DNA of 45,248 nucleotides from an uncultured bacterium (GTDB taxonomy: Bacteria; Verrucomicrobiota; Verrucomicrobiia; Verrucomicrobiales; Akkermansiaceae), in assembly GCA_945947905.1 (NCBI GenBank), contig CAMEZO010000005.1:1-45248 (forward strand), written 5' to 3'. The notes under the pieces are model-generated. The model was given only the letters and a program-made list of their open reading frames with translations, ran no database searches and was not told where the DNA came from. Of this stretch, positions 44,651 through 45,003 are shown piece after piece. Within the stretch, counting starts at the first letter, position 1; each line of letters begins with the position of its first letter. A program made the position numbers and the translations under genes.

Positions 44651-45003
44651 TGACCGCGGAATGAAGGGGACTTGGAGAGAGGAAGTGCTGTGCCGAGCTT
44701 GGGGCAGACTTCACACCGCCGTGGTAGTAGAACCCGAGAGGATTAATGACCGCGGAATAAAGGGAATTTTTGGAGAGTCAGAGGCATGCTTAGCTTAGTA
44801 CAGACTACATGCCGGCAAGGTGGTAGGCTTCTTAGTTGCTTTATAAAATTCCAATGCTACCTACTGCCCCAGAGTCTTGAAGTCTTGCCAAAGAGTCGCA
44901 TGATATACAGTCTCCGAAAATTCCTTTTATTCCGCGGTCAGACTTTCTCCCTCTCTACTACCTCGGCGGTGTGAAGTCTCTCACCCCCTTTGCACAGCTC
45001 TGC
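44651..45003. repeat. Intergenic nested inverted-repeat element, copy 2
   Basis: Inner arms 44747-44775 / 44912-44940 (29 nt, 2 mismatches); outer arms 44707-44731 / 44954-44978 (25 nt, 1 mismatch); gctgtgc 44687-44693 / gcacagc 44992-44998; direct half-unit copy at 44651. Confidence 0.85.

Follow-up and report, generated by a model that had tools for sequence, protein, structure and literature searches.

The described repeat families closest to the locus reported here are the RAYT/REP-REPIN systems, in which dispersed, gene-less inverted-repeat units accompany a nuclease gene that is present once or in few copies and has these repeats on its flanks (PMC3116915, PMC3733652), and the bacterial MITEs, among which RUP, NEMIS/Correia, ERIC and Nezha are listed (PMC3733652). 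The window analysed here, by which we mean the whole stretch of 45,248 nt, is contig C5 of a 2.19-Mb genome in 171 contigs. It contains a nested inverted-repeat element that, on the reading we prefer and to which we give about an even chance, is a copy of a MITE-like, non-autonomous family for which a GxxExxY nuclease is the probable mobiliser. To our knowledge GxxExxY genes have no assigned function. In the open-access papers searched, we found none linking them with inverted repeats.

The element and its surroundings in the window are as follows.

38541-38808, no strand assigned: second, diverged member of the family, with the type-B unit GAACGCAGAATTTCGGGAAGG and arms at 38592-38621 / 38759-38788 (90%), from profile and sequence.
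43172-44563, minus strand: gene for a MATE-family efflux transporter, with the 5' end towards the element (Pfam MatE, 2.6e-39; NCBIfam MATE models).
44613-44995, no strand assigned: the whole nested inverted-repeat element, one cluster of the nhmmer profile of aligned copies (L001 1474-1856).
44651-44746, plus strand: outer left unit (~96 nt), TGACCGCGGAAT...GACTTCACACCGCCG...GAGAGGATTAA, repeated directly as the inner unit at 70% identity and a spacing of 96.
44747-44826, plus strand: inner left unit, containing the 29-nt inner arm 44747-44775 (direct repeat and arm pairing).
44827-44911, no strand assigned: centre of the GGCTTCTTAGTTGCTTTATAAAATTCCAATGCTACC... type, conserved in the full copies of a 33-copy multiple alignment.
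44912-44940, minus strand: inner right arm, partner of 44747-44775 (arm pairing).
44954-44980, minus strand: outer right arm, ending in GAAGTCTC, partner of 44707-44731 (arm pairing and alignment of copies).
45008-45033, minus strand: CACGGAT-type periodic repeat CCGTGGTATCTGTGTGATCCGTGGAC, immediately outside the element (sequence).
45038-45067, no strand assigned: perfect, terminator-like hairpin AGGGCCTGCCGC/GCGGCAGGCCCT, separating the element from the autotransporter-like gene (sequence).
45091-45248, minus strand: 3' end of a putative autotransporter-like gene (sequence and paralogous matches).

Rechecking the sequence showed that the inner arms (44747-44775 / 44912-44940) are complementary over 29 nt save for 2 mismatches, and the outer arms (44707-44731 / 44954-44978) over 25 nt save for 1, just as the initial annotation had described, and the pair it placed further out is present as GCTGTGC at 44687 and GCACAGC at 44992. 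The stretches 44651-44730 and 44747-44826 are moreover direct repeats of one ~96-nt unit (70% identity, spacing 96). Because the nested inverted repeat is at the same time a direct repeat of this unit, we describe the layout as unit-unit-centre-unit'-unit'. The direct repeat, the genome-wide family set out below and the diverged member at 38541-38808 were three points absent from that annotation. Elsewhere in the window, 33803-37126 is a tandem duplication with a period of ~1.7 kb and blocks 73-83% identical, apparently a duplicated gene, and 21033-21411 is a low-complexity tandem stretch of the GTCGGAGGAGTC type, probably a Ser/Asp-rich protein segment.

One long hairpin had been proposed for the region, and its computed folding is strong: the RNA fold of 44640-45010 reaches -168.7 kcal/mol, compared with a mean of -112.6 (sd 7.2) for shuffled sequences (z = -7.8), and 0 of 100 shuffles folds as well. 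So strong a fold would suit a structured RNA (a regulatory RNA, a terminator or an mRNA-stability hairpin) kept at each site, as would the intergenic position beside a terminator and the MATE 5' end and the presence of copies near the 3' ends of several autotransporter-like paralogs. We nevertheless regard this reading, which the initial annotation had also offered, as highly improbable. Rfam has no match at 44613-44995, and only three tRNAs were found in the window, which leads us to reject a known noncoding RNA; the aligned copies give only a weak consensus structure; and copy number and nesting are variable. Within-copy compensatory pairing was not seen, the arms being no more complementary within copies than between them (permutation p = 0.62, 0.24 and 0.91). 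Since a copy's own arms match no better than those of other copies, the comparison argues against selection on pairing copy by copy and fits DNA-level ends.

Searched against its own genome, the element gave 120 BLAST matches. Copies were gathered by this search together with an nhmmer profile of aligned copies, which returned 59 clusters, or about 55 copies or fragments after removal of duplicate stretches, a count that is a lower bound; the element is thus far from single-copy. The basic form is ~280 nt long and the range is ~280-640 nt. Two unit types, A (TGACCGCGGAATAAA...) and B (GAACGCAGAATTTC...), occur 1 to about 4 times per side around a conserved centre, and the symmetry is not constant. 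Many copies are found a few hundred bases or less from a contig end, which is where repeats that break assemblies should lie. At BLASTN sensitivity, a first sample lacked the family in 24 of 24 other genomes of the genus and in 14 of 14 of the order, and in a wider sample of 59 genus genomes the repeat was confined to two, the own genome and G054. The latter is a close sister species because its aligned flanks are mostly 89-99% identical to the own genome. The comparison with the genome and its relatives suggested in the initial annotation therefore returned many copies at home and a limited reach beyond it, a single sister among the 59.

Phage and plasmid records held no similar DNA, viral contigs with the core motif were not found, and the proteins had no PADLOC or PHROG match, so we reject a phage or plasmid origin. 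At one locus (L362 1993-2565) a 190-aa ORF, AbiEi-like by eye only, lies between two convergent element copies.

The CACGGAT-type repeat beside the window element also borders other copies. Because it is already there at the empty site of one copy in the sister species, the motif is a target or neighbour at that locus; in G054 it also supplies the inner portion of the arms in one GxxExxY element. Contig C21 and several loci of the sister species carry DNA resembling 45091-45248, and in both species element copies adjoin several autotransporter-like paralogs at the 3' end (45091-45248; C21; G054 loci L300, L301, L304 and L307), which suggests a preferred site or co-duplication.

Evidence of mobility comes from L022 on the own contig C15, where a 303-nt element is missing in G054 (C39) and both flanks are retained. 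An imperfect ~10-nt direct repeat marks the junction at this locus only, and a precise deletion in G054 by slippage is the alternative to insertion. Over 17 copies there was no consistent signal of target-site duplication (permutation p = 0.7), and a general target-site duplication is rejected. At most of the other loci compared, a single flank matches the sister species, and most insertions therefore cannot be dated. At the window locus the identity to G054 is 96% as far as 44615; beyond that point G054 runs into another gene, ispH/lytB-like as judged from its sequence by eye, and the edge of the window element is therefore a synteny break.

The many dispersed, gene-less inverted-repeat copies and the one clean presence/absence site support a MITE-like reading, the first of the three put forward in the initial annotation. 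The family resembles a MITE insofar as it is short, gene-less, bounded by terminal inverted repeats and dispersed in many copies; we call it MITE-like, rather than a MITE, because there is no general target-site duplication. MITEs usually derive from IS elements, and a conventional family could be imagined whose transposase, of the DDE or another type, is encoded elsewhere or has been lost, the more so as at least one IS1595-like transposase (L360 2781-3725, named by reading the sequence) occurs near one copy. We think this unlikely: the IS1595-like gene lies ~0.9 kb from a GxxExxY gene and is not bounded by the arms, the loci examined had no IS and no transposase gene between family arms, target-site duplications are not consistent, and the genome has no Y1 transposase. 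The search for a RAYT proposed earlier gave 0 Y1_Tnp matches in the genome, with control genomes positive, and on that ground we reject a REP/RAYT (REPIN) system. A REP/BIME-like reading thus holds as an analogy and fails as a RAYT system, there being no Y1_Tnp/RAYT gene and the element being ~10 times the length of a REP.

The only genes found between family arms, at the loci examined, encode GxxExxY proteins. GxxExxY (PF13366/TIGR04256) scores above the family cut-off in 4 of 59 genus genomes, including both repeat carriers; the other two, G059 and G013, have GxxExxY and lack the repeat. The own genome has two such genes (TIGR04256 1.7e-40 and 2.6e-39; PF13366 2.7e-39 and 4e-39). One, on contig C64 (1450-1896 of L088), has type-B arms inverted on either side (1323 plus and 2009 minus), and the other, on contig C2, lies between type-A copies. 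G054 has three, one of them a pseudogene, with family profile matches beside all three. All 5 GxxExxY genes or remnants of the two species thus adjoin or lie between family copies, a placement unlikely to be due to chance since, by simple arithmetic, ~55 clusters of ~300 nt cover <1% of the genome. We consider the association of the repeat family with GxxExxY as partner gene well supported.

An AlphaFold model built from 45 homologues (pLDDT 90) gives GxxExxY a PD-(D/E)XK nuclease fold. Its best structural match is SSO0001 (E 3.9e-5), a Cas4-family PD-(D/E)XK nuclease; AdnAB and lambda exonuclease match less well, and the sequence profile points weakly to T7 endonuclease I (E 0.17). The residues E...D...ExK...Q are invariant in the 45 homologues; this invariance, together with the structural matches, makes a nuclease function likely, and because the nuclease residues do not vary the protein is under selection. 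We know of no Cas4-like nuclease that transposes DNA.

The same arrangement was sought in other bacteria by comparing the two 300-nt flanks of each gene and scoring the best inverted repeat between them, with a cut-off of >=30 bits. Among 75 GxxExxY loci, mostly from a survey of the order and seven from the genus, 54 reach this cut-off, compared with 0 of 133 matched positions from the same loci; an earlier 400-nt version of the test gave 55/75 versus 0/107. About 28% of the GxxExxY loci of the order have no clear repeat. A genome-wide scan across phyla (Bacteroidota, Planctomycetota, Acidobacteriota, Chloroflexota, Pseudomonadota, Spirochaetota and others), made with a closer alignment subset (A2) as the first alignment (A1) was too diverse, supplied 80 named loci, of which 78 were usable; 43 of these and 1 of 139 control positions reach the cut-off. 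When arms from loci of the order were searched against their own genomes, they were multi-copy in several of nine genomes (65 matches in G104, 57 in G113, 37 in G037 and 16 in G148), often as gene-less convergent pairs. Many such pairs lie ~90-250 nt apart, and most examples fetched were confirmed as inverted repeats. Since multi-copy arms and gene-less pairs also occur elsewhere, other families, whose arms are unrelated in sequence, show the same architecture as the window element. Within one genome, the arms of different GxxExxY genes usually have no relation to each other. Loci L310-L329 of G104 and G113 include very long gene-less inverted repeats, with arms up to ~320 nt and 86-94% identical, built of ~9-nt periodic CGCAGAG/CAAAGG-type motifs.

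An exclusive link between inverted repeats and GxxExxY is rejected by a comparator, PF05635 (the 23S rRNA IVS protein), whose loci in the order (L330-L359) show the inverted-repeat layout in 20 of 30 cases versus 0 of 56 controls. Arms common to the GxxExxY and PF05635 loci of one genome were likewise rejected (0 of 29 pairs). Because PF05635 loci share the layout and their arms differ, the layout characterises at least two classes of small gene, and by itself it does not determine causality. The two species of the sampled genus genomes that carry both GxxExxY and this repeat have no PF05635.

That two unrelated protein families share one layout argues for both being passengers, the elements spreading by another enzyme or by replication or recombination errors and small ORFs being carried along or trapped in the loop, much as ORFs occur in rRNA intervening sequences. 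The gene-less copies, which far outnumber the gene-bearing ones, and the differing arms of most GxxExxY genes within one genome also favour this reading. We hold this possible, at well below an even chance: both GxxExxY genes of the own genome carry arms of one family and no PF05635 gene occurs there, the stretches examined had no transposase ORF between paired arms, and the invariant nuclease residues point to selection on the protein.

Returning to the preferred reading, we infer mobilisation by GxxExxY. The protein would act in trans on a hairpin or cruciform into which the arms fold, cutting or processing it and thereby allowing copies to be excised, copied or inserted anew; copies with the gene would be autonomous elements and those without it their miniature counterparts, and nesting could arise by repeated insertion or by hairpin-templated extension at the same arms. 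Against such a mobiliser stand the lack of a consistent target-site duplication, the many insertions that cannot be dated, PF05635 with the same layout, the unrelated arms within genomes, the order loci with no clear repeat, G059 and G013, and the Cas4-like nucleases, which are not known to transpose DNA. More broadly, and only tentatively, a class of inverted-repeat mobile elements as yet undescribed and present across phyla may owe its movement to GxxExxY proteins, as Cas4/lambda-exonuclease-like PD-(D/E)XK nucleases acting on hairpins or cruciforms; such elements would shed gene-less miniatures like the one in the window. GxxExxY genes are widespread, a genome of this order having several of them, and most lie inside often multi-copy inverted repeats with their nuclease residues intact, which gives them a concrete, testable role. 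Such a role would account for palindromic repeat families in genomes without RAYT genes.

Compared with known systems, GxxExxY loci are like the 23S rRNA intervening sequences with PF05635 in that a small ORF occupies the loop which a long inverted repeat encloses; the PF05635 protein, however, is a four-helix bundle, a fold different from that of GxxExxY, and its arms are not shared with the GxxExxY arms of the same genome. With bacterial MITEs the family shares its size (~280 nt in the basic form), lack of coding capacity, inverted ends and many intergenic copies, and it differs from them in its nested multi-unit arms, in having no consistent target-site duplication and no IS parent found at the loci examined, and in a partner gene that encodes a nuclease-fold protein. 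The likeness to RAYT/REP-REPIN systems lies in dispersed gene-less units and in the flanks of a nuclease gene that carry the same repeats. There, however, the enzyme is a Y1/HUH transposase and REPs measure 20-40 nt, whereas here the enzyme is the PD-(D/E)XK protein GxxExxY, the units are ~96 nt and the elements ~280-640 nt.
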